Positions 21,725 to 56,594 of a stretch of DNA of 64,000 bases are shown here, in pieces. The stretch spans positions 27,153,926 through 27,217,925 of the forward strand of contig OX243825.1 in the NCBI GenBank assembly GCA_945859605.1, read 5' to 3'. Each line of letters starts with the position of its first letter. Positions within the stretch are counted from its first letter, which is position 1. The stretch is from Lumbricus rubellus. Lineage: Eukaryota > Annelida > Clitellata > Crassiclitellata > Lumbricidae. Made by a program: the position numbers and the translations under genes. Under the pieces are notes generated by a model. The model was given only the letters and a program-made list of their open reading frames with translations, did no database searches and was not told the DNA's origin.

Positions 21725-22115
21725 ATAGGCTATTATAGGCCTACCCTTATCCTATGTTTTTTACCTTGAGCTATTAGACTGGCTTGGACTAAGAATAATC
21801 TATAATATTTCATGCTCTTTTGAAATCTAAAACAGTTTTATATAACTGCTATAGAACTTTAGCTGTTTCCATTTGTTAGCCTTTTAAAAGCTCTAGGCCC
21901 TATATAAATATTCTGAAATACGTTTTTTATATCCATGCGTCCATGCTTACAAATAAGCATGTTTGCCTATAATATAATATTGCTAAGATAAAAATAATGC
22001 AGCTTATGATTTTCTGATCAGGCATCTAATTAGGAGTGACAGTCAAAGAACGATTACAGGAACTCAGATCTGAAATCTGGATAGAAGCAGCTGCTATTCA
22101 AAATAAATATTAAAG

Positions 22116-23207
22116 ATGAACAGCACATCATCGCCTGCAATGTGTGTTCCTCATAACGACTCTAGCAACACATCATCGTCGTCGTCGTCGTCGTCATCAT
22201 CATCGTCATCGTCTCAGACCCAGAAACCTCTTGAGTCGAAATTCTACTACAGTGCCAGTGTCTCCAGTGTCCAGATCCTCACCATTTCAATCGGTGCCAT
22301 CGGAATCACGAGCAACCTCTTCGCTCTCATCGTCTTTCTTCTGCACAAGCCACTCCTCAAACGTCCGGCCAACTACTTTCTCGTCGGTCAATGTTCCCTC
22401 AACCTGCTCGTCAGCATCATGCTCATCCTGATGAGCATGGTCGACGGTAGTCACTGGCCACCGTCCGTGGCCGTTCCAATGTGCTACATGTGGAACTCGC
22501 GAGCCATCTTCAGCGGTCTATTCCTGTCTTCGGTCTACAACATCACACTGTTGACCGTTGAGCGCTACCTTGAGATCGTGCATCCCATCAAGCACCATCT
22601 GATGATCAGCAAGCGCAAGGTCATCGTAGGGGTCATCGCTGGAACTCTGAGCGGCATCATCGTCAAGGCAACCATGGCTTACTCATCCGTCAACGTCATC
22701 AACGGAGTCTGTACGATCGGATACTATCCGACCATCGCAGCGACGCGCATGGCCGTCATCGCCAACTTCATCTTTGAATACTTCATCCCAATCATCATCT
22801 TTGCATTCTCCTATGCCAGCATGGCACACTCTCTGCGCCGCCTCTCGAAGACCACTCGACCGGCAACTGAAAGAGCAGGAGCAGCGCCACAGACAATGGA
22901 TCCGAAGATCTCTCGCGCCAGACGTAACATCATCAAAATGTTGCTCATCGTCGTCCTTGGATTCGTCCTCTGTTCATCCTTCAAGCAGTTTCTCCTTCTA
23001 GCAAGTCTCTTTGGTGACGCAGGAGTGAATCTGAGTGGAGTTGTTTACAACATCGCTCAGGTCTTCTCATACTTCAACTGCTGCAACGATCCTTTCATCT
23101 ATGGATTCTACTACGAGGAATTTCGCGCTGGAATTCGCAAACTGTTCTGTCGTTTTCAGTTGAAGAAGTCGTCGACTCCAAGTTCGACCAGAACAACAGA
23201 AGAGTAA
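22116..23207 (+). CDS. Intronless class A (rhodopsin-like) orphan GPCR
   Basis: One exon encodes 363 residues with seven hydrophobic segments. The extracellular N-terminus has N-x-S/T sites and a run of 14 serines (about residues 20-33). TM1 contains GITSNLFALIVFLL (N1.50-like). Cysteines near residues 122 and 199 can form the TM3-ECL2 disulfide. ERY near 149-151 replaces DRY. TM7 ends in NDPFIYGFYY, a variant of NPxxY with D for P. The usual TM6 CWxP is missing (FVLCSSFKQF instead). A short Ser/Thr-rich tail follows C345. It acts in the plasma membrane; ligand and G protein cannot be read from the sequence. The start ATG is the first in frame. Single-exon, fast-evolving receptors of this kind are expanded in sea urchins. 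Overlapping short frames in other phases are shadows. Confidence 0.93.
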   Translation: MNSTSSPAMCVPHNDSSNTSSSSSSSSSSSSSSQTQKPLESKFYYSASVSSVQILTISIGAIGITSNLFALIVFLLHKPLLKRPANYFLVGQCSLNLLVSIMLILMSMVDGSHWPPSVAVPMCYMWNSRAIFSGLFLSSVYNITLLTVERYLEIVHPIKHHLMISKRKVIVGVIAGTLSGIIVKATMAYSSVNVINGVCTIGYYPTIAATRMAVIANFIFEYFIPIIIFAFSYASMAHSLRRLSKTTRPATERAGAAPQTMDPKISRARRNIIKMLLIVVLGFVLCSSFKQFLLLASLFGDAGVNLSGVVYNIAQVFSYFNCCNDPFIYGFYYEEFRAGIRKLFCRFQLKKSSTPSSTRTTEE

Positions 23208-28202: not shown

Positions 28203-28485
28203 AAATAAGAGATGGAAGCGAAAATTCAGCATCAAGTGCTTAGTCGACATCGGGACTTTTTGGAAGACAGAATGGATGTGGATTCTGGACTTCTCGATAA
28301 GCTTCTAGCAAACGAAACTTTAGTTGGCAAAGATATTCGAGATATCAGGAAATATCAGACATTCGACGAAAGAAATTCAAGGCTTTTGGATTACATTCTG
28401 GAGAAGGACAAAGTCGATTGTTTGGTAATTTCGTTGGTTGACACGAAACAAACTCATCTCGTCAACTATCTCGATGGAGACGGAG
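28203..28485 (+). CDS. CARD/SH3/F-box/NHL gene, exon 1: CARD 1 (start codon 28212)
   Basis: A CACAG acceptor (to 28202) leaves nine bases of 5' UTR before GAGATGG, a good initiation context. An upstream untranslated exon is therefore likely. It encodes residues 1-91. HRDFLEDRMDVDSGLLDKLL, the ED(I)RDIRKY stretch and a final THLVNYLDGDGG follow the six-helix caspase-recruitment pattern, including the VDSGLLDKL helix 2 phrase. CARDs mediate homotypic binding in apoptosis and innate immune signalling. The exon ends in phase 1 before GTTAGT, after the DGDGG that commonly closes CARD exons. Confidence 0.82.
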
Positions 28486-28769
28486 GTTAGTATTATTGCA
28501 ATGTCCAAAATGTCAATTTTTTCATATATTTTTTGTTAATTAAGCTATTTGTAAACTACTTCAATTTTTATGCACGTTTTTGGTTTGTGATAGAGTTCCT
28601 ACCCGCTGTTGCATATATGCAACATAGCCAGAAATTTTAAAGGGAACCCCCAAAAATTTGGGATTTTTTTTCTGATGTACTGTGACCATAATAATTATAT
28701 GCAAGTTTCACGTAAAATAATTTTCACACATCTAGAAGTTACTTTGGGCTAAACAGGGTTAATTCTTTG

Positions 28770-28850
28770 AGAGATGAGGGCCATTTTTGAGGACTGGCGG
28801 GCCATTTTTGAGGCCTCGCGGGTCACGGGTTGGGAACCGCTGTTAATTAC
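28770..28850 (-). mobile_element. hAT end fragment
   Basis: GGCCATTTTTGAGG repeats followed by CGGGTTGGGAACCGCTG, the complement of a CAG[CT]GGTTCCCAACCCG end like that at 23839. The other end was not found. It lies in the intron between exons 1 and 2 of the CARD gene. Confidence 0.6.
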
Positions 28851-29438
28851 AGTTAGGCTACAACATACGCTATCTATCAGCTCTTAGTCGCCATGGGAAG
28901 CCGCAGACAGAAACATAGGCCTACGCAACACGAATTTATCAAGAAATTTTTAAAAATTGAAAGACAGCATTCTTTAGAATTTAGATTAAATGATTTGAGT
29001 GAGTAGACCTAACCACATAATAGTGACACGATTTTAGTCCGAATAACAGTTTAATAACGTTTACTTATGTGTAAGCCTACTATAGGCCTACATGCTATTA
29101 AGTTCTACTGTTCCAGTAGGCCTATAGGCTAGGTCTCTGAAGCAAAGAACAATAACAGAAGACCACCATTATCTGCAATTATTTTCGGTGCTCTAGTCTG
29201 AGTAAAATCAATTTGTAATTTTCATTAAGCAATAATCTAGCCAATTCGTTGTGTAAAATTATAAGAAAATGGCTAAATATCTTTTCCGCTCTCACGATTT
29301 TTATTTATGTCTATTATTACCAGGTGTTTATCATCATCGCTTCCAATTGACTGAACTATACTCTGATGGATTCGGCAGCGATAGGCTGCGTAGACTGAAT
29401 TATTACCTTGCTAGAAACTTCATTGCCCTCTGTTTCAG

Positions 29439-29744
29439 ATTATAAGACGGAATATGGTGACGATTGGCCGCTGGGTGAGGAGCAGATCTCGATTCTTAAC
29501 GCAAATCAAGAGACCTTGGTGGATCTTCTCGATCCATCCTGTCTCATTATTCAGATGTTCTCGGCAGGAATACTCAACTATCGACAGCAGAAAAGCATTT
29601 CGAGCGAAACGAATGTCTTTGTGAAGACTCATAATCTGCTGGAGATTATAAGGAGACGCAGTTTAAGAGACTACAAGAAGACAATTGAAAGTCTTCATGC
29701 CACGAACCAGAGTCACATTGCACAGATCCTCGAGAAAGGAGGAG
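29439..29744 (+). CDS. CARD/SH3/F-box/NHL gene, exon 2: CARD 2
   Basis: Acceptor CTCTGTTTCAG. Phase 1 at both ends; residues about 92-193. Key stretches are LNANQETLVDLLDPSCLIIQ, the NLLEIIRRRSLRDYKKTIES helix pair and HATNQSHIAQILEKGGG. They match the second half of a CARD (F-x-x-AL..T.Q.HLA..L). The last codon splits before GCAGGG, so the intron would be GC-AG. The reading frame otherwise runs to a stop at 29761, which would truncate the protein at this point. I prefer splicing because the same GGAG-split junction is used in exon 9. Confidence 0.78.
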
Positions 29745-30168
29745 GCAGGGCGCTCTTTTAATTTTCTATCTATTACATACATGTAGCCTACCTGATGAAA
29801 TTGTTCAGATCAAAATAATTTTGGACAGCTGAAGAACCAACTCAAAATCACAGCAATGTCAAAAGTATAATATTATGCTAATGAAACAGATTAGTTTGAC
29901 GCAGATAAACAATTCATAGGTAGCCTATAATCTATTTATCTATTATAGGCCAAGGCCTAATAGTTTTACAATCACAGATAATATTTCGGCCTCTAGCAAT
30001 AATTAAGCTAAAGTGTGATTGGGGTTCAAGTGAAAGGCATGTCTAACTGGTGTCAATGTACATGTATGTCAATATACTGTATAATAAACAACAGCCGCAG
30101 GTGATGGTGCTAAGAATTGCGTAGATTATGACTGATAAAAATCCGAAATCGTATCCTTTCCGTTTCAG

Positions 30169-30594
30169 TTGTTATGAGAGTTCACACTCAGCTGAATTGC
30201 GAAGAAGACGATGAAACTGAAGAAGAGATCATCGCAAGATTCGCGAATGTTTTGAGCGGGAAATCGTTGGAGACGTCCAGTCGCATCCTCGAGGGAACTC
30301 TGAACGTCATCGCTGCCAAGAAAGGGCAAAGCATCGTTCTGTACGTCTACTGTACAACACTGAAGGATCTGATTGGTCTGCAAGAGATGAACGTGTCAGG
30401 AAAACTGCGAGCCATAATTAAGACAATATTTACTCAGCTGTTTTCCCATGTTTCGTGGACGTCGGTGAACGTTGAAAATCTCGAGTCCGTTGTAAAATCT
30501 CTGTTTAATCAACTGCTCTGTCGTTCACAGATTCAGCAAATGACAATCTATTTCGACGACGATGAATACAACAAATGCAGGTCATACTTTTCTG
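30169..30594 (+). CDS. CARD/SH3/F-box/NHL gene, exon 3: TRADD-N-like alpha/beta domain
   Basis: Acceptor CCGTTTCAG, donor GTGAGA; phase 1 at both ends; residues about 194-335. After an acidic stretch (CEEDDETEEEII) comes a central KKGQSIVLYVYCTTLKDLIG followed by a helix (VSGKLRAIIKTIF). This beta-strand, helix, 'S-G-L' pattern is what I associate with the TRADD-N type ferredoxin-like fold, known beside death-fold domains in animals and bacteria. A second half (VENLESVVKSLFNQLL) may be a decayed repeat. Exon 10 is its closest relative in the gene. The fold call is inference from pattern and needs structure prediction. Confidence 0.72.
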
Positions 30595-30634
30595 GTGAGA
30601 ATTTGTTTATGTGCCTTCTTTTCTGTCTTTAAAA

Positions 30635-31116
30635 CAGAGGTGTCAAACCATTTTGGTAGCGGGCCAGTGTGAACATCTTCCAACAAGTGGCGGGTCAGTG
30701 TGGACATCTTCAAAAGGTTGTCGAAGCTCCTGAGCGAAATTGGGTAGTGGTCTAAGAGGGAGCTACGGGCTTGGCCAGCTAATTCCCAGAATTTTTAAAT
30801 AGTGTTTCGTAACTTTCAAATTTTTTCCCCAGACATCCAACCGGAAACAATAGATAGGCCTAGGCTCCTAGCAGTAGCCTACACACTAGTACACAGTCTA
30901 CAGTCTACACAGAGCTGCGCGTCTGAGCAAAAGCGACACAGTAAGAAAAAACCTGCATGTATTTGGCGCTGACTGTAAAATATTAAAATTTGAACTATTA
31001 TCCTCTAAAATATAAAAATTTGTGCTTTTATCCTCTAATTTTGTAATCTTTAGGGAAGGTTCCGCTGTCCAGAAAAATCGTCGGCGGGCCAGCGGGCCAG
31101 CTCTTTGACACCCCTG
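30635..31116. mobile_element. hAT MITE (CAGnGGTGTCAAA ends)
   Basis: The left end is CAGAGGTGTCAAACCATTTT and the right end the complement of CAGGGGTGTCAAAGAGC, with GGGCCAG motifs inside both. The flanks CTTTAAAA and CTATAATA agree at six of eight positions, a worn target duplication. It sits 40 bases after exon 3 of the CARD gene. Confidence 0.78.
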
Positions 31117-31368
31117 CTATAATAGAACCAATGCTCAGATTTCTGTGGAAATTTCAGATATCGCTTCTCATTGTAAAAGTGGTGGTTCTCACACAGATCA
31201 CGAGTCTCCTGAACCACCGTAAACCCTGTTTTGTTATGGTATATAAATTGACGTCAAGCTGAGGTACCTTACATTCTCCGGCTTGACTTGGTTGAACTTG
31301 CCGTGCTGTGCAAAGTGTTGACATGATTCATGATAATTTATTTGTGCGTGGACATCATTCTTTGCCTT

Positions 31369-34300
31369 TTTGTGCTGGTGTTGTCTCATGAAATTATCAT
31401 ATTGTGCTGGTGAGGTATCGTGAAATCATTATCTTGTGCTAGTGTTGTCTCTTGAAATTATTATCTTGTGCTATTGTTGTCTCATGAAATTATTATCTTT
31501 TGCTGATGTTCTCTCATGAAATTATTATCTTTTGATGATGTTGTCTCATGAAATTATTATCTTTTGCTGATGTTGTCTCATGAAATTATTATCTCTTGCT
31601 GATGTTGTCTCATGAAATTATTATCTTGTGCTCGTGTTGTCCCGTGAAATTATTATCTTGTGCTCGTGTTGTCTTGTGAAATTGTTATCTTTTGGTGGTG
31701 TTGTCTCGTGAAATTATTATCTTGTGCTGGTGTTGTCTAATGAAATTATTATCTTGTGCTGGTGTTGTCTCATGAAATTATTATCTTGTGCTGGTGTTGT
31801 CTCATGAAATTATTATCTTGTGCTGGTGTTGTCCCGTGAAATTATTATCTTGTGCTCGTGTTGTCTCGTGAAATTATTATCTGGTGCTCGTGTTGTCTCA
31901 TGAAATTATTATCTTGTGCTCGTTTTGTCTCATGAAATTATTATCTTGTGCTCGTTTTGTCTCATGAAATTATTATCTTGTGCTCGTGTTGTCTCATGAA
32001 ATTACTATCTTGTGCTCGTGTTGTCTCATGAAATTATTATCTTGTGCTGGTGTTGTCTAATGAAATTATTATCTTGTGCTGGTGTTGTCTCATGAAATTA
32101 TTATCTTGTGCTGGTGTTGTCTCATGAAATTATTATCTTGTGCTCGTGTTGTCTCATGAAATTATTATCTTGTGCTGGTGATGTTTCATGAAATTATTAT
32201 CTGGTGCTCGTGTTGTCTCATGAAATTATTATCTTGTGCTCGTGTTGTCTCATGAAATTACTATCTGGTGCTCGTGTTGTCTCATGAAATTATTATCTTG
32301 TGCTCGTGTTGTCTCATGAAATTATTATCTTGTGCTCGTGTTGTCTCATGAAATTATTATCTTGTGCTGGTGATGTTTCATGAAATTATTATCTGGTGCT
32401 CGTGTTGTCTCATGAAATTATTATCTGGTGCTCGTGTTGTCTCATGAAATTATTATCTTTTGCTGGTGTTGTCACATGAAATTATTATCTTTTGCTGGTG
32501 TTGTCTCATGAAATTATTATCTTGTGCTCGTGTTGTCTCATGAAATTATTATCTTGTGCTCGTGTTGTCTCATGAAATTATTATCTTGTGCTAGTGATGT
32601 TTCATGAAATTATTATCTTGTGCTCGTGTTGTCTCGTGAAATTATTATCTTGTGCTGATGTTGTCTTGTGAAATTGTTATCTTTTGGTGGTGTTGTCTCA
32701 TGAAATTATTATCTTGTGCTGGTGATGTTTCATGAAATTATTATCTTGTGCTCGTGCTGTCTCATGAAATTATTATCTTGTGCTCGTGTTGTCTCATGAA
32801 ATTATTATCTTGTGCTGGTGTTGTCTAATGAAATTATTATCTTGTGCTCGTGTTGTCTCATGAAATTATTATCTTGTGCTAGTGTTGTCTCTTGAAATTA
32901 TTATCTTGTGCTATTGTTGTCTCATGAAATTATTATCTTTTGCTGATGTTCTCTCATGAAATTATTATCTTTTGATGATGTTGTCTCATGAAATTATTAT
33001 CTTTTGCTGATGTTGTCTCATGAAATTATTATCTCTTGCTGATGTTGTCTCATGAAATTATTATCTTGTGCTGATGTTGTCTTGTGAAATTGTTATCTTT
33101 TGGTGGTGTTGTCTCGTGAAATTATTATCTTGTGCTGGTGTTGTCTAATGAAATTATTATCTTGTGCTGGTGTTGTCTCATGAAATTATTATCTTGTGCT
33201 GGTGTTGTCTCATGAAATTATTATCTTGTGCTGGTGTTGTCCCGTGAAATTATTATCTTGTGCTCGTGTTGTCTCGTGAAATTATTATCTGGTGCTCGTG
33301 TTGTCTCATGAAATTATTATCTTGTGCTCGATTTGTCTCATGAAATTATTATCTTGTGCTCGTTTTGTTTCATGAAATTATTATCTTGTGCTCGTGTTGT
33401 CTCATGAAATTACTATCTTGTGCTCGTGTTGTCTCATGAAATTATTATCTTGTGCTGGTGTTGTCTAATGAAATTATTATCTTGTGCTGGTGTTGTCTCA
33501 TGAAATTATTATCTTGTGCTGGTGTTGTCTCATAAAATTATTATCTTGTGCTCGTGTTGTCTCATGAAATTATTATCTTGTGCTGGTGATGTTTCATGAA
33601 ATTATTATCTGGTGCTCGTGTTGTCTCATGAAATTATTATCTTGTGCTCGTGTTGTCTCATGAAATTACTATCTGGTGCTCGTGTTGTCTCATGAAACTA
33701 TTATCTTGTGCTCGTGTTGTCTCATGAAATTATTATCTTGTGCTCGTGTTGTCTCATGAAATTATTATCTTGTGCTGGTGATGTTTCATGAAATTATTAT
33801 CTGGTGCTCGTGTTGTCTCATGAAATTATTATCTGGTGCTCGTGTTGTCTCATGAAATTATTATCTTTTGCTGGTGTTGTCACATGAAATTATTATCTTT
33901 TGCTGGTGTTGTCTCATGAAATTATTATCTTGTGCTCGTGTTGTCTCATGAAATTATTATCTTGTGCTCGTGTTGTCTCATGAAATTATTATCTTGTGCT
34001 AGTGATGTTTCATGAAATTATTATCTTGTGCTCGTGTTATCTCGTGAAATTATTATCTTGTGCTGATGTTGTCTTGTGAAATTGTTATCTTTTGCTGGTG
34101 TTGTCTCATGAAATTATTATCTTGTGCTCGTGTTGTCTCATGAAATTATTATCTTGTGCTGGTGATGTTTCATGAAATTATTATCTTGTGCTCGTGCTGT
34201 CTCATGAAATTATTATCTTGTGCTCGTGTTGTCTCATGAAATTATTATCTTGTGCTGGTGTTGTCTAATGAAATTATTATCTTGTGCTCGTGTTGTCTCA

Positions 34301-35622
34301 TGAAATTATTATCTTGTGCTCGTGTTGTCTCATGAAATTATTATCTTGTGCTGGTGATGTTTCATGAAATTATTATCTTGTGCTCGTGTTGTCTCATGAA
34401 ATTATTATCTGGTGCTCGTGTTGTCTCATGAAATTATTATCTTGTGCTGGTGATGTTTCATGAAATTATTATCTTTTGCTGGTGTTGTCTCATGAAATTA
34501 TTATCTTTTGCTGGTGTTGTTTCATGAAATTATTATTTTGTGCTCGTGTTGTCTCATGAAATTATTATCTTGTGCTCGTGTTGTCTCATGAAATTATTAT
34601 CTTGTGCTGGTGATGTTTCATGAAATTATTATCTGGTGCTCGTGCTGTCTCATGAAATTATTATCTGGTGCTCGTGTTGTCTCATGAAATTATTATCTTG
34701 TGCTGGTGATGTTTCATGAAATTATTATCTTGTGCTCGTGTTGTCTCATGAAATTATTATCTTGTGCTCGTGTTGTCTCATGAAATTATTATCTTGTGCT
34801 GGTGATGTTTCATGAAATTATTATCTTGTGCTCGTGTTGTCTCATGAAATTATTATCTGGTGCTCGTGTTGTCTCATGAAATTATTATCTTGTGCTCGTG
34901 TTGTCTCATGAAATTATTATCTTGTGCTGGTGATGTTTCATGAAATTATTATCTTTTGCTCGTGTTGTCTCATGAAATTATTATCTTGTGCTCGTGTTGT
35001 CTCATGAAATTATTATTTTGTGCTCGTGTTGTCTCATGAAATTATTATCTTGTGCTGGTGATGTTTCATGAAATTATTATCTGGTGCTTGTGCTGTCTCA
35101 TGAAATTATTATCTGGTGCTCGTGTTGTCTCATGAAATTATTATCTTGTGCTGGTGATGTTTCATGAAATTATTATCTTGTGCTCGTGTTGTCTCGTGAA
35201 ATTATTATCTTGTGCTGATGTTGTCTTGTGAAATTGTTATCTTTTGGTGGTGTTGTCTCATGAAATTATTATCTTGTGCTGGTGATGTTTCATGAAATTA
35301 TTATCTGGTGCTCGTGCTGTCTCATGAAATTATTATCTGGTGCTCGTGTTGTCTCATGAAATTATTATCTTGTGCTGGTGTTGTCTCATGAAATTATTAC
35401 CTTGTGCTGGTGTTGTTTCATGAAATTATTAACTGGTGCTGGTGTTGTTTCGTGAAATTATTATCTTGTGCTGGTGTTGTCTCATGAAATTATTATCTTG
35501 TGCTCGTGTTGTCTCATGAAATTATTATCTTGTGCTCGTGTTGTCTCATGAAATTATTATCTGGTGCTCGTGTTGTCTCATGAAATTTTTATCTTGTGCT
35601 GGTGATGTTTCATGAAATTATT
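31369..35622. repeat. 32-bp minisatellite, ~133 copies, with 1,440-bp higher-order duplication
   Basis: The unit is GTGCTSGTGTTGTCTCATGA followed by AATTATTATCTT. Variants (CTGGTGATGTTTCATG, CTTTTGCTGATG, ATCTGGTGCTCG) recur in order. The segment from 31441 reappears from 32881, exactly 45 units later. Further on the offset becomes 1,408, i.e. one unit was lost. Units are head to tail without spacers, so this is not a CRISPR array. It fills about 84% of intron 3 of the CARD gene. Confidence 0.97.
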
Positions 35623-35660
35623 ATGCTTTCGTATTTAAATCTACATTGTTACAATTACAG

Positions 35661-35886
35661 AGAGCAGATTTGTTCGCGCAGTTAGTGACTTCGATCCATT
35701 GAAGATGAACGCAAATGAGACAGAGGAATTATGGAAGACTTTGCAGAGAGAAAACTGGAGCGACACAGGAGGAGATATTTCAATAAATTACTTTATAGGT
35801 CCAAACGAAACCTTTGATCTATCGCAACTGGCGCTTTTCGTTGAGAAAGGAGAGAATTTCGAACTAAGAGATTTGGTGGATATTGG
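35661..35886 (+). CDS. CARD/SH3/F-box/NHL gene, exon 4: first part of SH3
   Basis: Acceptor CAATTACAG, donor GTGAGT; starts in phase 1 and ends in phase 2; residues about 336-410. RFVRAVSDFDPLK matches the first SH3 strand (cf. ALYDY; the MAGUK type VRALFDYDP). After a long insert of roughly 40 residues, LALFVEKGENFELRDLVDIG matches the diverging turn (LSFKKGE.LEI). The 5.1-kb intron before it is mostly the 32-bp minisatellite. Confidence 0.72.
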
Positions 35887-36059
35887 GTGAGTAGCTATTG
35901 CATGTATACAATACTTGTATGTATACAGGGTGGCCCAAAGAAGTGATAACACCTCGTATATATAATGTACTATAATTAGTTCAAATCTGTTTAGACTATA
36001 TCCATAATAGCTTAAAAAGTTCACTAATTTACTTACTTAACAGTTTAGTCATATGACAT

Positions 36060-36515
36060 CATTGCCCGCCTTCCTCGATTCTCCCACATTTCTTCATTCA
36101 TGACTGAACAATTTCACTGGCTTCCATTCTCGACCCGTATACAATTTAAGGTCCTAATTTTGGTCATCAAGTCTCAAATGGGTCTTGCTCCGAAGTATCT
36201 GTGTGATCAGATACTTCGCCCCCCTTCTGCCACTTCGCTGCGTCCTCTTAGGTCCTCTGATCGGCTTGACCTCTTTGTCCCGCGAGTCAGGACCGCCATG
36301 GCGCAATCCAGATCATTTGCCTGCATTGGTCCCTTTCTATGGAATGGGCTTCCCCCATCAGTTCGCTCTGCCATCCTCTCTGGTAGTGTATCCTCATCTT
36401 TCTCTCGTCTAAAAACTTGCCTTTTTTCTCGGAGATGAACGGCGAACGCACTGGGAACGCTTCTGAAAGGCTCTTGCTGCAAGAAGCGCTTTATAAATTG
36501 TCAGATAAGATAAGA
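36060..36515 (+). mobile_element. CR1/L2-like LINE 3' end
   Basis: The 112-residue frame contains FHWLPFSTRIQFKVLILVIK, GLAPKYLCDQI, LRSSDRLDLFVPRVRT, FLWNGLPPSVR and FSRLKTCLF, the standard C-terminus of these LINEs. The 3' UTR GGGAACGCTTCTG...AGAAGCGCTTTATAAAT forms a hairpin, and a short AGATAAGATAAG tail ends it. The 5' part is missing. Confidence 0.88.
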
Positions 36516-36604
36516 TCATTATTACGACAACTTCCGGTCGACATTTTTTATTTTTTATTTGCCAATCGTCAACTTCTGCGTGTTTTGAAGATATTTTAAC
36601 CAGA

Positions 36605-37248
36605 ATGACAAAATTCACAACAAAAGACCGTATTCTTATTAAAAATTTGCGAATTGAGAAACATTGGAGTGCAAGGCAAATGAAAAATGAGTTTCCACAC
36701 AAAGCCTATAGGGTCAGTCGGGTTATTAAATAAATTTATAATGACGGTAGGCCTACAACAGAACGTAAACGCGGAAGTGGTCGGCCAAAGTCTGCTAGAA
36801 AACGACAGAACATTGAGCGGGTGAGTGAACTGATCTGCAGTCAAGAAGATGATCTTCACAGTCACAAAGTCCGTGGGAAATTCAAAGAGAAACGGGTAGG
36901 CTATATCACGGTCGTCGGTGCAACGTATTGTAAAGCAATATTTACAACTGGAAACGAACAAGCGTGTGATCAGGCAAACACAACGAAAATTGCAAATTGA
37001 AACGTTTGCAACGCAGTCAGCAGCTACTTAAACGGTTTCCTAATGACAGAAGTGTACGAACCATCTGGTTTACAGACAACAAGATATTCACCTTTGCCAC
37101 GCCAGTTAATTCTCAACATGGTCGTATTTATTCAGTTGAATCAAAGAAAAGACAATTAAGTTCCAGAAAGGAGACATACGAGAACGTGAACTTTTCAGCT
37201 GCGGTATCATGGTATCAGTCGGTGTTTCTCGCTTGCAAAAGTTGTTGA
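36605..37248 (+). pseudogene. mariner-like transposase, broken
   Basis: It starts MTKFTTKDRILIKNLRIEKH and continues with a helix-turn-helix-like region, then RKRGSGRPKSARKRQNIERV. After stops and frame changes comes LLKRFPNDRSVRTIWFTDNK, where FTDNK corresponds to the catalytic FTDE(K) motif. The C-terminal half with the remaining acidic residue is lost to the LINE and microsatellite that follow. It cannot make active transposase. Confidence 0.8.
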
Positions 37249-37290
37249 GAAGCAAGGGGACACACTGAACATGTTTTATGAGTAGCGTTT

Positions 37291-37421
37291 GTATGTATGT
37301 ATGTATGTATGTATGTATGTATGTATGTATGTATGTATGTATGTATGTATGTATGTATGTATGTATGTATGTATGTATGTATGTATGTATGTATGTATGT
37401 ATGTATGTATGTATGTATGTA
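37291..37421. repeat. (GTAT)n microsatellite, ~33 units
   Basis: An uninterrupted tetranucleotide run. Repetitive peptide frames on both strands (YIHT and MYVC patterns) derive from it and are not genes. Confidence 0.97.
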
Positions 37422-37770
37422 TATGAACATTTATATAGCGCCTTATAATAACCTCACGAAGGCGCTTAACGTACATGTAGCTACTAGACAGTTCTAAACA
37501 AGTGCGTCTTAATTGTCCTTGAGAATGTTTCATGAGATAAAAGCAATGCAGTATCGCGAATTGTTAATGGAAGACTGTTCCAGTATGTAGGTCCAATGCA
37601 TGAGAAGGCGCGGCTGGCCCGCATCACTGTACGGGAGCGTGGGACTATCAAGTCCCCACGAGTCGCAGAGCGCAGAGACCGACGACCTGGTTGGTTGGAG
37701 ACGGGGATACAGAGCTCCCTAATATACTCCGGAGCCCGGCCAACCATTGACACTCGTCCCATGACGATGA
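37291..37770 (-). mobile_element. CR1/L2-like LINE 3' end ending in a (GTAT)n tail
   Basis: On the minus strand the frame contains GDLIVPRSRTVMRASRAFSC, IGPTYWNSLPLTIRD and HETFSRTIKTHLF, a LINE C-terminus. The 3' UTR then has AAGCGCCTTC...GAAGGCGCTATATAAATG-type pairing arms (37430-37470). It passes directly into the (ATAC)n run read as (GTAT)n on the plus strand at 37291-37421. The microsatellite therefore marks the LINE 3' end. Confidence 0.82.
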
Positions 37771-38517
37771 TCTTGAATGTAATTACTACTTGGCATACGA
37801 GAGTAAATTACAACACGTTATATTGATTCAATTATATTAAATGACCCTTTGCTAGGAGGTGTTATCACTTTTTGGGGGCCACCCTGTATATACCGCCATG
37901 TGTTTATATGTATGCATGCATATTATTATGTATGCATGTATGCAATTATTGCAATATGCATTCATGCATGCAAAAGATATGTACAGGTGTTACAGTTTGA
38001 ATTCAAATATATACAGTATGCACAATACACACACACTCAAGCACGCAAACACACAGGCTACATGTGCACATACCTACACACCCCACACACACGTGCGCGC
38101 ACACATACGATGCATGCGCGTTTGCATTTAAATTTCGTGTAGACTCGCAGCTAAGCCATAGCAGCTGATTAATTTACAAATAGGCCTACATAGCGCAGTT
38201 GTACACGTCTATTTTGCAGGTGCGAAGGCCTTGACGCCCAAAGTCCAATCACTATTAATTATTATCTCTATTCGTCACACATAGGCATATATTATTATAT
38301 ATGCCGTAACAGCCCTACACTTAACTACATGCATACTTGCATAGGTACAATGTGACATATAATTGTGCATAAATATACACATGCAAGTCATGCATGCATG
38401 TAACTGTGTGATTTTCTTACTTACTTACATGCATTCATGCATGCATCCATACATACTGCATACACACATACAAACAAACAAACCAACAAACAAACAAACC
38501 AACCAACAGACAAACAC

Positions 38518-38592
38518 ACCTACCTACCTACCTACCTACCTACCTACCTACCTACATACATACATACATACATACATACATACATACATACA

Positions 38593-38626
<34 letters not shown>

Positions 38627-38672
38627 CATACATACATACATACATACATACATACATACATACATACATACA
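38518..38672. repeat. (CTAC)n(ATAC)n microsatellite
   Basis: About nine CTAC units followed by about thirty ATAC units with one TATA interruption. It lies 80 bases before exon 5 of the CARD gene and is the complement in sequence of the run at 37291. Confidence 0.96.
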
Positions 38673-38753
38673 TGCCCACGGTACATACATTCATATTATA
38701 TGCATGCATGCTGCAATTGCAATCGAGTAACTGCAAGATCGTTTCTATGCTAG

Positions 38754-38855
38754 AGACAATAACGTCATTTGGTGGAAAGCAAAGCGCTTGAGAGATGGAC
38801 AGATCGGATTCATTCCGAGAAATCGAGTAGTCATCGATTACAATTATATTCAAAA
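38754..38855 (+). CDS. CARD/SH3/F-box/NHL gene, exon 5: second part of SH3
   Basis: The acceptor GTTTCTATGCTAG (to 38753) gives the phase required by exon 4 and joins ...LVDIG to DNNVIWWKAKRLRDGQIGFI and PRNRVVI. This restores SH3 spacing, with the double Trp, the G-GFIP turn and the NRVV strand. The exon can end at AA|GTGAGT (38855, phase 2) or read on to a TGA two bases later. The splice is preferred because the donor matches consensus and exon 6 continues in frame. If the TGA is used, a separate gene starts downstream. Confidence 0.74.
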
Positions 38856-39647
38856 GTGAGTCACAGAATTATATCGCATGCCATCAAATTCAAAATTTTT
38901 CATTTGCATACGGTTTAGGGCCTTAGGCTACATATCCGTGGGGCGGGGGTCAGAACCGTCAGGTGCAACAGTGCAACTGTCCGGCAGAAAAATGTTCGCA
39001 ACCTAATAGTGGGCGGGTCAAAACTGGCGGTAAGTAAACGATCACGTGGATGAAACAAACTCCCTGCAATGAAAATTCATGCAGAGAAACTATGCAGGCG
39101 ATGCCGTATTCAGGAATTTTCCTCTGAGATGTCTGGACCAAACACTGGTCGATAGGTAACCGACCGTGGCTAACCGATCACATAATTTTATACGGGGGAA
39201 ATAGCGTTGAGTTTCATGTAATCTTTATTAATTAAGCTTATTACTATTATTTATGAAATGCTACCCTTACTACAGTTGGTAAAAATAATGGAGCTCGTTG
39301 TCACATTTCTGCTTTAGAAAACAAAACAATGAAGTTCCGTTTTCAGCAGGTTTGTTTTTAAATATTTATTTCCGTAATATAAAGACTTTCATATCATAGC
39401 CTACATCATGCTAGCATATATTCCTCGTTGAAACTAATACCGTAAAGTTGTCATTTGCTGATAAAATTGCGCAAACAAGGTTTTTAAGTTTAACATGCAG
39501 TTTAAAATGTAGCAAAATAAAACAAAATCGTCTTTTTGTCGTATTTTCGGTTTTTATTATTTTCGCACCGAGTAGGGCTATTATGGTTACATAAGATAGA
39601 CATTTCGCACAGTGTCTTGCACATTCTTAGCCTATAATAGGCTACAG

Positions 39648-39732
39648 ACGAATCGTTGTGAATCTTGTAGATCGGCTAGATGCGGCGGATCAGTTGGCGA
39701 CGAGGCAGAAGTCCAGCTGTTCACCTAAAACT
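39648..39732 (+). CDS. CARD/SH3/F-box/NHL gene, exon 6: linker
   Basis: Acceptor GGCTACAG, donor GTAAGC. The first base completes a Lys codon left open by exon 5, and the exon ends in phase 0. It encodes about 29 residues (RIVVNLVDRLDAADQLATRQ, then KSSCSPKT) with no domain I recognise. It is included because both splice sites and both phases fit. Its short length means chance cannot be excluded. Confidence 0.55.
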
Positions 39733-40047
39733 GTAAGCGTTATAATTGTATTAGGCCTATTATTATTATTGTTATTGTATTTGAATGACTGTCTGCGTAG
39801 AAATGTCTCTTTCTGGAGGCAGACTCCCGCACTTAGCGGAACTTGCAATCCGAATACGGAACCCACGTGCACTGTTGCTAACAGCTATAGACATCTACTC
39901 TCTGTATTGCCTGAATGTGCTAGACATAGCCTAGGCTTAGACTACTTGGAAATCCGATCGATATTTGTATCATTGCTATTTTTAACTGGGACGTGGTGGT
40001 AGGCTATATCGGTTTGTTCTGTGTCTTATACATGTAACTGGGTGCAG

Positions 40048-40134
40048 GTTTCTAGAGCGACCATGGACAAGTTGACCACTAAAATTGTCTGTGAGGAAGG
40101 CGATGGCAAAACCACCTCATTTACCACTTACTCG
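40048..40134 (+). CDS. CARD/SH3/F-box/NHL gene, exon 7: linker
   Basis: Acceptor AACTGGGTGCAG; 29 codons, phase 0 at both ends (VSRATMDKLTTKIVCEEGDG, then KTTSFTTYS). The donor GTTGGC is weak, and a MITE begins five bases into the intron. An in-frame ATG in the strong context GACCATGG (40063) could instead start a separate gene containing the F-box-like, CARD and NHL exons. The sequence alone does not settle this. Confidence 0.5.
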
Positions 40135-40139
40135 GTTGG

Positions 40140-40411
40140 CAAGGCCGTAGCCAGGATTTTTTTTTGGGGGGGGGACACCAGACTAAGGTGTTTGTGGATG
40201 ATTTAGGCCTAATGATTTAATCTGTATTTAATATGTATTGTAAACATTAATGTCAAATAGAAATAAGAGCTTCAAAACGAAATCCCTTTAGTTCTTACAT
40301 CATTATTGTGTTAGTAGCCCATTATTTGCCTATAATGCATAATTTCACTATATCATTATTTCATTTGGAGGGTTGTTCAGACACTCAAAACACCCCCTAG
40401 CTACAGCCTTG
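40140..40411. mobile_element. hAT-like MITE at an exon edge
   Basis: The ends CAAGGCCGTAGCCAGGATTT and the complement of CAAGGCTGTAGCTAGGGGG enclose a T/G-rich left part and an AT-rich body. The flanks TCGGTTGG and TGGGTTAG match at six of eight positions. It starts five bases after the end of exon 7 of the CARD gene. Confidence 0.65.
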
Positions 40412-40512
40412 TGGGTTAGCATAAGAACCAAATAGAGCCGTTGTCGTCGTCATTATCATCGTGTAGACACGGAGTGTTTGAAAGTATATAAACAAGCTGC
40501 TTCAATGATCAG

Positions 40513-40711
40513 GCGAATGATCTGCCTCTGGAGTTGCTGGACATAATCCTTCGCAAGACATATCTCCATTGCATCATCTCATGTGAGAAGAATCAGTCGA
40601 CGATGCGTCATCAAGACGTCATCGTTCGCAAGTTGTCGATGGTCGACAACTGCTGGTTTCACAGAGTCAACAGACGAAAGTTCAAGAAGTCTGTCTGGCG
40701 CCACCTGGCTG
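40513..40711 (+). CDS. CARD/SH3/F-box/NHL gene, exon 8: F-box-like segment
   Basis: It follows CAATGATCAG and ends before GTGAGA; phase 0 to phase 1; residues about 503-568. NDLPLELLDIILRK matches the LP.EL...IL opening of an F-box. After an insert, VRKLSMVDNCWFHRVNRRKF and WRHLAG match the L..VC..W......LW half. An F-box would bind Skp1 and recruit an SCF ubiquitin ligase. Together with the C-terminal propeller it would have a substrate-adaptor layout. The family assignment is tentative because of the insert. Confidence 0.62.
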
Positions 40712-40886
40712 GTGAGATAATAATTATCAGATTTAGCTTTAATCGTCCAAGTTCTACATGTAACTGTCTCCATATTATTATCATATCGCCTCTGAATAGG
40801 GATCTGGAAAAGTCAATGGATAAATATTATTCCGATTGATTGATCACACCGTCATGAAGAAGCTATAGTATTATAGCCTATAGCTT

Positions 40887-41500
40887 CAGTGGCGGCGCTA
40901 CGGGAGGTCGCGGCAGGTCATTTGACCTGCCTATTTTGCTCACGACCTGCCTAATGACCTGCCTAAAAAACTTTAGATTTTTTAAATATATTTTACATTC
41001 GTTTATTTGAGAGTTTTAAATGAAAAATCAACATTATTTTTCCTCGCCCAAAAGATCACTAGTGTTGTGGTGCAATTATATCCAACTGACTTTTACGTCT
41101 GATCTTATCTAGTAGCTAAATAGGTCTATCCCCTATGGGATATGAGATTTATAGGAAACCTATAATTATATGAATCAAACAGAAAGGATAGGAAAGGAGG
41201 GGAGTCTCAAAGGAAGGAGTAACTGGTAGAAGGATGAGGCACGGGTGCCTGCTATCACCACTCCTCTTTAATTAGCATATAGGCTACATAAAAGAACTAA
41301 TACAAGAAGCAATGGAACTGACAGGAGAGGGTATAAAAGTGGATGGGTTGAAAACTCATACACTGTAATAGTCCAGCTACTGTAGGCTACCTTTAAGATT
41401 TGCCGACGACCAAATTCAATCATCAATTTCTTCGACCTGCCAAATAGTTCCCATGACCCCGATGCGACCTGCCGAAATTATAGAGCTGGCGCCGCCACTG
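40887..41500. mobile_element. hAT MITE (CAGTGGCGGCGC ends) containing a LINE fragment
   Basis: The left end is CAGTGGCGGCGCTACGGG and the right end the complement of CAGTGGCGGCGCCAGC. The flanks TATAGCTT and CCTAGCTT agree at six of eight positions. The interior has GACCTGCC motifs near both ends. At 41220-41410 there is a decayed reverse transcriptase piece (HGCLLSPLLFN and LRFADD, the RT motif 4-5 region). It lies in an intron of the CARD gene. Confidence 0.78.
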
Positions 41501-42265
41501 CCTAGCTTGGTCTCTACCAGAGTTTCAAAGAGTTTACAAAGTTTTGTGCTTTAACGTTAGGTCAGGAGAACAGTGGACCTCGACACCTTCTTCATTAATT
41601 GTTTGCATAAATCACGATAAGAATTTCCTGGTATTGTATGGTGCAAGGATAACCTATAAGAGAAATCAGTTGACTTCCTCGAATCGACATGCACAGTTGC
41701 ACACTCTGGAATACGATACGCTACAGCTGGCAGTGATGGGTCTATGTAGCACTCTAACGGTCTAACCGCAGAATTGTTACATTGTTGCAGCGTAGTAGGC
41801 CTATACCTGTGCGGTAGTAATCCAATGCTACATTTTAGTGCATATTCAGTGCATGCATGTAGGCTATTATGATCGTCTTTCTTTGCATGCAAACTATCAT
41901 CACTAATAGACCTGCTTTGAATTCAGCCTTCAATACACCGTAATTAAATTGTAGAATTTAGGCTTAAAGTTTTCTGTTAGCCGGAAAACGATAATAGTCA
42001 AACTCGTGTACAGTAACTGTACACTTTGTGATTGTAAGTCTAACTTTTGAGAAAGTGATTTGCATTTTTACGAGTGATTGGCGCAAGATTGGCGCAAGGA
42101 ATCCTGCGTGCTTTCACTGACAGCCTGAAGAGCGGAATTGTCTCCAAATTTAATTAACTCATTGTAGGCCTACAGATTATGCATTGCTATTATCAGCATA
42201 ATAAGACCTAGTAGCTATTATTAATATTATTGAACCATGCCGTCTTCTGCATGTATTTTGTACAG

Positions 42266-42661
42266 TCGTCTATGCAAAATTCGGCATAAGAGGTACCATC
42301 TACAGAAACAACCGGGAGTACTTTACGCAAAACATCGAGATGCATAGTCTGATTAAACGACTGAGGCAAAACGATTGCCTAACAGACTATGAAGTGAGAA
42401 TCATCGGTAGACAGAAGGACAATCAATTCAAAGCTTTCGCGAAGGACAATCATTTCAAAGCTTTCGCGAAGGACAATCAATTCAAAGCTTTCGCGAAGGA
42501 CAATCAATTCAAAGCTATCGCGAAGGACAATCAATTCAAAGCTATCGCACGTTTAGAGGCTGTCCTGAGACGCATCGATGACGAGATGTACCAGACATTT
42601 GTCATCTGTCTACGCCAGACGGATCAGAAACATGTGGCGAGAGTCGCTGAAAACGGAGGAG
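42266..42661 (+). CDS. CARD/SH3/F-box/NHL gene, exon 9: CARD 3 with internal nonapeptide repeat
   Basis: Acceptor GTATTTTGTACAG, donor GTTCGC; phase 1 at both ends; residues about 569-700. The CARD features are MHSLIKRLRQNDCLTDYEVR at the front and YQTFVICLRQTDQKHVARVA-ENGG at the end. Between them a 27-bp unit is repeated five times in frame (42415-42549), giving KDN[QH]FKA[FI]A five times. This adds about 36 residues where a helix 3-4 turn is expected. The ENGG-G end repeats the junction seen in exons 1 and 2. Confidence 0.82.
42415..42549 (+). repeat. Five in-frame copies of a 27-bp coding repeat
   Basis: Units start AAGGACAATCAATTCAAAGC and end TTTCGCG or TATCGCG. Differences are few (CAT for CAA in unit 2, ATC for TTC in units 4-5), so the expansion looks recent and is probably length-polymorphic. 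Confidence 0.95.
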
Positions 42662-43506
42662 GTTCGCATTGGATTTGTTTGCATTAATCTATGATAAAAA
42701 AAATGATAGACCTACATTGAGATGCATATTGCCATTATATCATAAGACGTGCTTGTATTAACCTACCGGTATGAAACGCTGCGAGTAAGGCATTTTTCGC
42801 AAAGAATTACAGCCTATCATTTCTTGTCGATAGCTTTTTTGTTATTTAACTAGTCCTAGTTGAAGTTTGAAAGTTATTAGACTAACTCCATTTCCCCACA
42901 ATTTCTCAGTAGACCAGTAAATAATTTAACACAAAATAATATAGAGAATGAACCAGGAAGAAAATTTGCACACGATGTATGCTTTTAGGCCTACTACAGA
43001 ATGATGAAAGAATAAACTTTTTAGCTGACTGAGAAGTATAATAGGCCTTGCATAATTATTATCCAAGACATTTGCACGGAACTCACTCCAAGCATCCATT
43101 TCCAATAAAATAAGCATAGCCTATATTTACAGACATCACAATAGAAATTTGTCAAAACAATTTTTGTTTTTAGGCCTACAAGTAGGACTAGGCCTAGGCC
43201 TACTGATTCGCATTGACGTCGACCTGAAATGTTAAACATACAACAACGACTTTTATGAAAACAAAATCTTCTATTGGCGTGTGGTTAAACTCATGCGTAG
43301 CCTAACGGTTGAAACTTTCATGAATCTTTAACTAGCAGACTGCATTAATTGTGGTCCGGTTATTTTTATCGGATATTAAATATTTAATAACAGCAACCTT
43401 TTCACGCTTAGCTGTTGAACCAACTAAGGTAAACAATGCTGATGTGCAAATTTAAGTTTCTGCTTTCTGATCTGTTTAAATATATTTTTATTTGTATCCT
43501 GCATAG

Positions 43507-43884
43507 TTGTTCTGAAGGCAACGATTCTGGGCGATGACATACGACGCAATGGATCTTTCAAACGAGCTCTAGTCAAGAGCTTAAACTCTCTTGAAGATAA
43601 ACACCAACGAAGATCGCATCAAATTGAGAAACTCTTTAATCAACTAAAGAATGACAACATAGAAATCCTCAATGCCACTCGAGATAAAAATCCAACGCTG
43701 TCGCTTTGGTGCAGATCGCAAACAGCTCTTGAAATCATGGCTTCTGTAGAATTCTGCAGGCGTCTGTTAGATATAATTCTTGCCTTGCTACCTGATTGTC
43801 AATTCTTTGGTGCTGAAGGAGCTCATGAAATTGCAAAACCTTCCGTTATCAACATTGATGTCGATCAGCTGAAGAAAACAGCTG
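43507..43884 (+). CDS. CARD/SH3/F-box/NHL gene, exon 10: second TRADD-N-like domain
   Basis: Acceptor TGTATCCTGCATAG, donor GTAAGT; phase 1 at both ends; residues about 701-826. HQIEKLFNQLKNDNIEILNA, then NPTLSLWCRSQTALEIMASV, then EFCRRLLDIILALLP parallels exon 3 (strand, S-L-x-x-x-C strand, T-x-x-L helix, leucine-rich helix). As in exons 2-3, it directly follows a CARD exon, so a CARD plus alpha/beta exon pair appears to have been duplicated. The assignment is from pattern only. Confidence 0.7.
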
Positions 43885-43919
43885 GTAAGTGGATTCACAG
43901 TTAACGATATCATCCCGCA

Positions 43920-43996
43920 TGCATGATAGGGTGGCCTGGTTGTTGCTTCAACCAAAGCATATTTGGTTGCCAAATAAAATGATTTGATTTGATTTG
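43920..43996 (+). mobile_element. LINE 3' tail fragment with (GATTT)n
   Basis: TGGTTGCCAAATAAAATGAT followed by repeated TTGATTTGATTT, the typical short tandem tail of an L2/CR1-type LINE. It lies just after exon 10. Confidence 0.6.
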
Positions 43997-44980
43997 ATCC
44001 ACAGTATAATAATTAATAATTATACCAAAGAGGCTTCGGTATCGTTGATCCAAATATCCGGGAAAGATAGCTTTTAACTTTCGGCAATGGGTTCACAATA
44101 ATATTTCGCCTTTCCCGATAGACAGGTGAATTTCAGCCCAAGAATGTAAAAAAAATGTAGGCTAGGCCTAAGTCTTACCTACATGTTACGCACGCACTTT
44201 ACGACATCCCCGGCTTCGCCACTTCCGGATCATCGTACGAAGAGGCAGCGTGTTGCTGTGGTTTGCCCATATAGCTAAAGGACTTACATTTGCTGAAGCA
44301 GATATTGAAGGGCCTCCGACAAAAGGGCACAGACAAAAGCGCGCAACTACTCGGAAAAGTGTCTAATGTCTGCGTTTCGCATGAACTAAAGATGCAGCAG
44401 CTATTATGAATTCAGTTTTAAAGTCGAGCATAGGGCGGATTTTGCGAAACAAGAGCGATAGAGGTGGCGGGTTATGTGGTCGGAGAAGTAAGGTTTTGAT
44501 AACCTAGATTTCAAACAGGAGAATTTTGAGTAAATGTAGCCTATGGGTGATGCGGAGACAAATTTCTAAACATGCAAATAATACATGTAATTATAGCCCT
44601 GCATTCCCTGTAAGGAGTGGCATAGTTTGTTTATCTTCCAGAAAGAATGATGAATACGATATAAGACTTAGATAAACTAGGGGATGGTGGATATCTGTGG
44701 TAGGCCTACCTCGGTCTTTTCGGTGTAACGTTTTAAGGCGCGGAATGCCATCACGATTTGTGGTTGATAGATATGAAAAGATCTGGAATTTTCTTATAAG
44801 AATTAATTCAGTTTTAGAGTGGGTTCAAGAAAAGGAGATGTGATGTCTGATGCAGCGGTCGTGTTAGCTTCCCTCTCAAAATGATCTGTTAAGCGATGCA
44901 TTTGGGGAGGTTCCTTTAGATGCATTTTATACCAGAGAATAAGCAACTGTTGTGTTTTCTTTTGTCTGTGTATATTTCAG

Positions 44981-45885
44981 TGTTCAGTTCATCAGCGTAC
45001 ATTTTGACATCGATACTTGAAGTTCACGAAGAATACGTCGTTGGAGTTGCGAAACTTAGCGACAGAATCTGCGTGCTGTGCGGCTCAGCTGGAAATCCAA
45101 CTGCGGTTATTGTGCTCCTTGTCTTTGAGGATCGAAGTCCGTTCGGTCTTCAGCGGAGGATCAACGTTCAAGAGGTCATGCGACCTTGGGACATGGCATC
45201 CAGTCGCGTGGAAAATTGTCTGTACGTTACGGACCTCGGAAGTCGATGCATTTGGAAGATTGCGGGAGATGATTATAAATTGACACTGTGGCTGTCTGGA
45301 ATTAGTGCGCCGTTCACTCTTTCAATTTCCGGTGACGGTCAACTGTGTCTTACGAGGGTCGGTCAACCGCTGTCCAGTCTAGAGATCTACAGATCTGATT
45401 CTCGTCTGTGTCTTAATATTCTGTTACCCGAGGAGATCAATGATCCGCTTCACGCAGTGGAGACGTCGACTGGAAACTTCGTCATCCTGTATCGAAGGGG
45501 ACTGCTTCAAAGGGTGAAGGATTCGTGTGGATTGACTGATCGAGAACCAAGTGATGGGAATCAGCTGTGGGGTGTAAGTGAAGTGACCAGGGACGGACGT
45601 ATGCTGACCAATTGTTTTGGTCCTGCGGATGGATCGCAGCGACTGAATCACCCGGAGCATCTCGCCGTCGATTCAGACGTGTTTGTGGCGGACACGAAGA
45701 ACGACAGAGTGGTTCAGCTGAACTCTAACCTGACCTGGAATAGAACTCTGATATCGACACATCAGAAGAATGTGTCAGTGGGAAGGATCAATTGGCCCAG
45801 CAGATTACATTACGACGATCACAACAAGCAGCTGTGTGTCGCAAGTCGATTAAACGGATGTGTTATCGTTTATAATTTTCACTAA
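44981..45885 (+). CDS. CARD/SH3/F-box/NHL gene, exon 11: NHL-type beta-propeller and stop
   Basis: Acceptor TGTGTATATTTCAG; the first two bases complete a Val codon from exon 10, and the frame is open to TAA at 45883-45885. It encodes residues about 827-1127. Blade-like phrases recur: WDMASSRVENCLYVTDLGSR, then CIWKI; LNHPEHLAVDSDVFVADTKN, then DRVVQL; INWPSRLHYDDHNKQLCVAS, then VIVYNF. This is the NHL repeat pattern (HP.G..V...G...V.D..N.R..V). NHL propellers bind protein or RNA partners. An in-frame ATG at 44920 lies in the intron and would give a hydrophobic N-terminus, so it is less likely as a start. Confidence 0.84.
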
Positions 45886-56482: not shown

Positions 56483-56594
56483 GTCTTTCCACCTCGCAGT
56501 GGTTGTTCTTTGTGTATGATATACACTCCGACCAGCCTTTTCATGTGTAAACCGTTAAAGGCTACTAAGAGCCGTCCTCCGCCTTACCATAATA

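Follow-up and report, generated by a model that had tools for sequence, protein, structure and literature searches.

A probable multi-domain gene from a large family with CARD and NHL-like exons in the earthworm Lumbricus rubellus

Exon structure of the locus

The 64,000-nucleotide stretch of Lumbricus rubellus DNA analyzed here (the window, which genome search places at C18:27153926-27217925 of the 787-Mb assembly) carries, between positions 28212 and 45885, a series of plus-strand exons that encode CARD, TRADD-N-like, SH3, F-box-like, and NHL-like segments and probably form a single gene. An earlier sequence-only reading had proposed eleven exons (E1 to E11). When the structure was rebuilt from the sequence, nine of these (E1 to E5 and E8 to E11) proved to have open frames and acceptable splice sites, scored with approximate consensus frequencies, and to be backed by homology or by conservation in paralogues, whereas E6 and E7 have weak sites and a phase fit at the level of chance. 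The intron phases are those originally read, namely 1,1,1,2,2 up to the E5 donor and 1,1,1 after E8.

The first exon, E1 (28212..28485), starts with an ATG, encodes CARD 1, ends in the phase-1 donor GAG/gttagt, and is matched in 8 paralogous loci. It is followed by E2 (29439..29744; phase 1-1), which encodes CARD 2, shows 44-53% identity in 8 paralogous loci, and carries the GC donor GAG/gcaggg; left unspliced, it runs into a stop at 29761. E3 (30169..30594; phase 1-1) encodes TRADD-N-like domain 1 with a conserved G-x-S motif. Most of intron 3 is occupied by a strandless 4.25-kb tandem array (31370..35624) that consists of ∼133 copies of a 32-bp unit with 92% matches, as detected by Tandem Repeats Finder. 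The SH3 cassette is split between E4 (35661..35886; phase 1-2), which contributes its N-terminal part, and E5 (38754..38855), which contributes the C-terminal part (WWKAK...GFIPRNRVV) and ends in a phase-2 donor, AAAA/gtgagt, lying over an in-frame TGA at 38857. E4 aligns with the exon in the same position at the paralogous locus C20 with an uncalibrated local score of 45; E5 is matched at C15, C20, and L040. Intron 4 contains broken reading frames (36596-37250), one of them yielding a 45-aa piece without a Pfam match; these frames look like the relic of a mariner-type transposase.

The second half of the set begins with E8 (40513..40711; phase 0-1), encoding the F-box-like segment (DLPLELLDIIL...FKKSVWRHL). 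CARD 3 is encoded by E9 (42266..42661; phase 1-1) and is interrupted by an in-frame minisatellite (27 bp ×5 at 42414-42548; Tandem Repeats Finder). The paralogous F-box-like exons at C19, C20, and C15 have repetitive stretches in a loop as well. E10 (43507..43884; phase 1-1), a member of the 12-sequence alignment A7, encodes TRADD-N-like domain 2, and the last exon, E11 (44981..45885), encodes the NHL-like beta-propeller and ends with the stop codon TAA. A search against Rfam returned nothing at gathering scores.

Relatives outside the genome

A protein search with the first half of the predicted product yielded, among 7,993 scored sequences and at E values up to 10, a single match, P0001 (490 aa), which consists of CARD repeats followed by a segment resembling E3 (BLASTP E 6e-4); E1 also matches it in tblastn. 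The tail of P0001 was considered as proof of an SH3 domain following TRADD-N and was discarded, since its alignment scores against E4 were reached by 521/1,000 and 367/1,000 shuffles.

The second half was far better represented, with 24 matches among 7,998 scored sequences. The closest of these, P0002 (E 2e-62; 531 aa, from a 1,884-base contig), has the layout F-box-like-CARD-NHL-like, shows 41% identity to E11, and contains no counterpart of E10; the alignment of CARD 3 with P0002 shows 37 extra residues in E9, accompanying the minisatellite. The other 23 matches are NHL-type by their Pfam labels and prokaryotic where the source name tells. The union of E8, E9, and E11 counterparts in one P0002 chain indicates that these three exons belong together. 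Residues 1-180 of P0002, used as a query, retrieved only P0002 itself (382 candidates), and no relatives were confirmed in viral contigs or genome contigs.

Domain identities

By homology, E1, E2, and E9 are assigned as CARDs. The first two score above the Pfam cut-off of 23.9 bits (29.6 bits, E 7.3e-07, and 27.6 bits, E 2.9e-06, respectively); E9 falls below it (19.8 bits, E 8.4e-4), while its homologue in P0002 exceeds it with 25.2 bits. The evidence that E4 and E5 together encode an SH3 domain is weaker: the SH3_1 score of the joined exons (19.8 bits) lies below the Pfam cut-off of 22.9, the best match in PDB is the NCK2 SH3 domain (E 4e-4), support for the domain comes mainly from its second half, and E4 alone has no Pfam match above the cut-off.

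The product of E11 resembles NHL propellers in sequence or, through its homologue P0002, in fold. Pfam NHL scores of the second-half model, E11 (16.6 bits), and P0002 range from 15.6 to 17.9 bits and stay below the cut-off of 20, so the domain is referred to here as NHL-like. In PDB, P0002 matches designed propellers (E 5e-12), PknD (2e-7), and, at only 0.13, TRIM71, the best stretch being one repeat of ∼38 residues. A fold search with a low-confidence model of P0002 (mean pLDDT 50) placed the NHL domains of TRIM2 and Brat at the top (TRIM2, E 1.3e-4, TM 0.15/0.28).

An hhalign comparison shows the families of E3 and E10 to be homologous (P 95.9, E 6e-9). TRADD-N domains are characterized by the order beta-alpha-beta-beta-alpha-beta with a conserved Ser at the beta2-beta3 turn. 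In the E3 family alignment (A5; n=13) Ser55 is invariant and Gly53 nearly so, and the secondary structure of E3 predicted from a weak model (mean pLDDT 47) is E-H-H-E-E-H..., with the fourth strand missing. The hidden Markov model (HMM) of A5 scored -1.7 bits against the human TRADD N-domain, a value reached by 1,533 of the 2,327 reported shuffles, the HMM of A7 gave no score, and hhalign, Pfam, and PDB provided no support for the assignment. The TRADD-N label of both families is thus unconfirmed; it reflects a motif and the layout and should be read as TRADD-N-like.

The same reading applies to the F-box label of E8, which reflects a motif seen by eye and the layout and is otherwise unsupported. 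None of the 12 family members has a Pfam match to an F-box and none was found in PDB, hhalign against F-box profiles gave probabilities of 1.0 and 1.5%, and the scores of the family HMM on three F-boxes were reached by 618/2,764, 1,798/2,786, and 1,115/2,801 shuffles. The P0002 and E3 models are too weak for deciding on either an F-box or a TRADD-N fold. In the layout proposed by the sequence-only reading, the three CARDs therefore stand, the SH3 domain does so weakly, and NHL becomes NHL-like, while TRADD-N and F-box stay at the level of motifs, profile tests and the weak models lending them no support. The suggestion that the protein feeds into SCF ubiquitination depended on the F-box label, for which no test gave support; a link to ubiquitin is possible but unsupported.

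A large family in the earthworm genome

Rather than being one of a kind, the locus belongs to a large family. Matches to the NHL-like exon E11 number at least 133 (131 of 779 candidates were scored, and some matches are pieces of a single exon), those to the F-box-like exon E8 at least 146 (150 of 176 candidates scored), and those to the TRADD-N-like exon E3 at least 60 (88 of 88 scored). E3 and E8 matches were counted at E≤0.01; all counts are lower bounds, and small contigs could be alternative copies.

The spacing of these matches is directional. Of the 146 E8 matches, 99 are followed by a same-strand NHL match no more than 20 kb downstream, whereas 5 have one on the opposite strand and 25 have a same-strand one upstream. 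Similarly, an E8 match lies within 20 kb downstream of 16 of the 60 E3 matches, with none on the opposite strand and 2 upstream. The F-box-like-to-NHL half is thus a module that recurs at 99 or more places, and the CARD-CARD-TRADD-N-like half precedes a subset of its copies.

E3 matches that lack an E8 match within 12 kb (46 in all) are concentrated on C4, which carries 24 of them. Eighteen plus-strand TRADD-N-like exon matches are packed there into 0.6 Mb (C4:5.42-6.01 Mb), and for none of the 24 is an F-box-like match listed at a distance of up to 12 kb. This cluster is perhaps a sister family with a different C-terminus.

One gene or two

We estimate the probability that the region is one multi-domain gene from this family at about 65%. 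Much of the case comes from 13 paralogous loci, nine of which were chosen for nearby E3 and NHL matches, C20 for its E3 match, and C4, L039, and L040 for NHL. In each of the eight loci with enough flanking sequence (C15, C18a, C18b, C18c, C19, C20, C7, and C8), all seven exon types follow one another as they do in the window, on a single strand, and two further loci, L037 and L038, show E3-E8-E9-E10 in shorter stretches. Since seven of the eight had been selected for having E3 and NHL close by, they demonstrate the order and not its frequency. The choice between one gene and two was in this way put to a test within the earthworm genome itself.

The principal alternative, distinctly less probable than a single gene, is that two adjacent genes duplicate together, one encoding CARD-CARD-TRADD-N-like(-SH3) and the other F-box-like-CARD-TRADD-N-like-NHL-like. 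Gene 1 would then have its end at one of three places: the TGA at 38857, a point shortly after E3, or a last exon that escaped detection. Gene 2 would open with a short initial exon, for example the one that holds the ATG at 40063, whose start context is strong (GCGACCATGG). The distance between the halves speaks against this arrangement. In the six copies lacking SH3 exons, the match-to-match distance from E3 to E8 is of intron size, with a median of 1,011 bp (787-2,236): the other five inter-exon gaps have medians of 525-1,412 bp, and the E3-E8 gap ranks first among the six gaps twice, second once, third twice, and fourth once. Two pairs of tandem neighbor copies are separated by 3,595 and 8,392 bp, well above the gap in the compact copies, such as those at C7:41.406-41.413 Mb and C19:31.494-31.503 Mb. 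At C15, where SH3 is present, the E3-E8 gap extends to 19,747 bp.

Splice sites at the junction point in the same direction. With the degraded copy C18c left out, an AG acceptor at the same phase-0 codon boundary precedes E8 in 13 of 13 copies, which implies that coding sequence should precede E8. The exon opens with a codon for a hydrophobic residue (alanine in the window), which is an ATG in 3 of the 13 copies and something else in 10. On the other side of the gap, a phase-1 donor directly follows the conserved YF motif of E3 in 9 of 10 copies (one of them a GC donor) and is absent from that place in C7. The SH3 exons at C15 and L040 also end in good phase-1 donors rather than in an immediate stop.

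Several observations weigh against a single gene and favor two. Both halves occur apart in the position lists: no E8 match is listed within 20 kb of 44 of the 60 E3 matches, and about 130 of the 146 E8 matches lack a listed E3 match upstream, which suggests that the two halves can occur separately (one of the 44 is C20, where tblastn nevertheless does find E8). No E1-E3 exons were found in the 2.4-3.2 kb examined upstream of E8 at L039, C4, and L040, the last of which does have an SH3 exon there. Read on without splicing, the E3 frame meets a stop no more than about 16 codons past the donor in all nine traceable copies, at L038 inside the donor itself, which makes a gene end at E3 conceivable. 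The SH3 exon of the window and that of C20 run into a stop that the phase-2 donor overlaps. Finally, P0002 starts at the first codon of E8 and is silent on anything preceding it.

It is highly improbable that the gene in the window is a family member decaying into a pseudogene. The satellite array and the relics resembling transposons that its introns contain, the GC donor of E2, and the minisatellite within CARD 3 would fit decay, but all nine supported exons retain open frames and splice sites, unlike the degraded copy C18c with a stop inside its E8 match.

The missing link between E5 and E8

The sequence-only reading bridged E5 and E8 through E6 (39648-39732) and E7 (40048-40134), the only boundaries that give its total of 1,128 codons (others give 1,111 and 1,107), and regarded the resulting match of phases as an argument for one gene. 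This argument fails. The E6 acceptor ranks within the top 42% of all AG and the E7 donor within the top 25% of all GT. At these site scores the interval 38858-40512 contains 269 two-exon phase-compatible links, and each of the 200 dinucleotide-shuffled versions of the interval has one or more (mean 59.5). Matching phases at this join are therefore to be expected by chance, with or without genuine exons in between. The number 269 itself was reached by 0/200 shuffles; stricter site settings left 23 and then 4 links, which were reached by 6% and 19% of shuffles.

A single gene does require some linker exon ending in phase 0, because the SH3 exons have phase-1 or phase-2 donors and E8 has a phase-0 acceptor. 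E7 is not needed for this purpose, given that a candidate linker ending at 39732 is already in phase 0, as is E8. The candidate (39648..39732, plus strand; acceptor at 39647 in phase 2 or at 39670 in phase 1, the exon then starting at 39671; donor gtaagc in phase 0), proposed from phase fit only, would splice directly to E8. Five other candidates in the window outscore it on splice sites, and the best similarity of the window candidates to C20 and C18a was reached by 38/200 and 44/200 shuffles, respectively. The best-fitting linkers in those loci are a 59-nt exon at C18a and a 79-nt exon at C20. Conservation of a linker between C18b and C18c was considered and rejected: its identity of ∼0.7 barely exceeds that of the preceding sequence (about 0.55-0.64), and, by reading of the sequence, neither locus has a GT donor at the linker end. 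No linker exon was established in the window or by comparison with the paralogues, and the linker is accordingly a prediction of the one-gene model. The higher-scoring linker candidates, together with the early stops in the E3 frame, shift weight from one gene to two. What supports a single chain is therefore the order of exons in the paralogues, the intron-sized gap, the E8 acceptor, and the E3 donor.

Predicted protein and known systems

If the exons do form one gene, its main transcript would be E1-E2-E3-linker-E8-E9-E10-E11, and the main protein would have the layout CARD-CARD-TRADD-N-like-F-box-like-CARD-TRADD-N-like-NHL-like. The E4-E5 pair could serve as an optional cassette with two outcomes: in-frame joining via a phase-2 acceptor, or termination of the protein at the TGA at 38857. 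The phase-1-1 exons (E2, E3, E9, and E10) would allow domains to be added or skipped with the frame intact, and P0002, which lacks the E10 domain, suggests that in-frame gain or skipping of such exons has indeed occurred. The product looks like an intracellular signaling or immune-type protein. By analogy with known TRADD-N families (Kaur et al. 2021, PMC8195603), it would sense through the propeller, which may bind a ligand, and signal through the CARDs, which may recruit, or polymerize with, other CARD proteins; the TRADD-N-like domains could work as the switch that connects sensor to output, and the F-box-like segment may offer a further binding site, one that a ubiquitin ligase could perhaps use.

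Mosaic death-fold expansions are already known from marine invertebrates. Kaur et al. (2021, PMC8195603) describe TRADD-N expansions as one to three death-like domains followed by TRADD-N and a variable C-terminus; the bridging TRADD-N and the death-fold domains are combined there with diverse parts for recognition or effector function. Large lineage-specific TRADD-N families occur in marine invertebrates: an SH3 domain follows TRADD-N in Amphimedon, a sponge, families of oyster and lancelet carry WD40 propellers, and there are fusions to polyubiquitin and TRIM ubiquitin-ligase domains (PMC8195603). The earthworm family resembles these expansions in its large size and in combining death-fold domains with TRADD-N-like domains, a putative SH3 domain, and a propeller. 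What sets it apart is that another CARD-TRADD-N-like pair follows, together with the F-box-like segment and the NHL-like propeller; the identity of its TRADD-N-like domains is also unconfirmed. The terms "NHL" and "F-box" do not occur in the main text of PMC8195603, and among the open-licence PMC papers retrieved by searches for the domain combination, none described it in its title or at the start of its abstract. Within that scope the layout found here is new.

Other familiar proteins share single features with the predicted protein. The TRIM-NHL proteins (TRIM2, TRIM3, TRIM71, and Brat) likewise end in an NHL-like propeller, but the window gene has CARDs in place of RING and B-box, neither of which Pfam detected, be it in the joined models or in the exons. 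E8 resembles, by eye, the F-box proteins of SCF ligases in its LPxELLxxIL start and W-x-x-L end and differs from them in lacking Pfam, PDB, or profile support. CARD 2 has the CARD of CARD9 as its best PDB match (E 0.019), whereas the window gene, unlike CARD9-type adaptors, has an NHL-like propeller.

Should the halves form one chain, the family would supply a large set of candidate sensors acting inside the cell, in which the propeller is the likely recognition part and the CARDs are the likely output. Such families make the generation of invertebrate recognition diversity by gene duplication and exon cassettes testable, and binding of the F-box-like segment to SKP1 would tie CARD signaling to protein degradation. 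The fullest version of this idea, a modular immune-receptor repertoire at >100 loci in which a single-chain sensor combines CARD signaling, a switch, a lineage-specific F-box-like ligase adaptor, a diversifying NHL-like propeller, and an optional SH3 domain, is a tentative and rather unlikely one.

Neighboring sequences in the window

Upstream of the gene, the window contains an intronless rhodopsin-type GPCR reading frame of about 363 aa (22107-23207; Pfam 7tm_1, E 3.7e-26). Downstream, minus-strand frames at 51267-56554 include a reverse transcriptase domain (E 2.8e-41) and an endonuclease domain (E 6e-9) and read as LINE-like.

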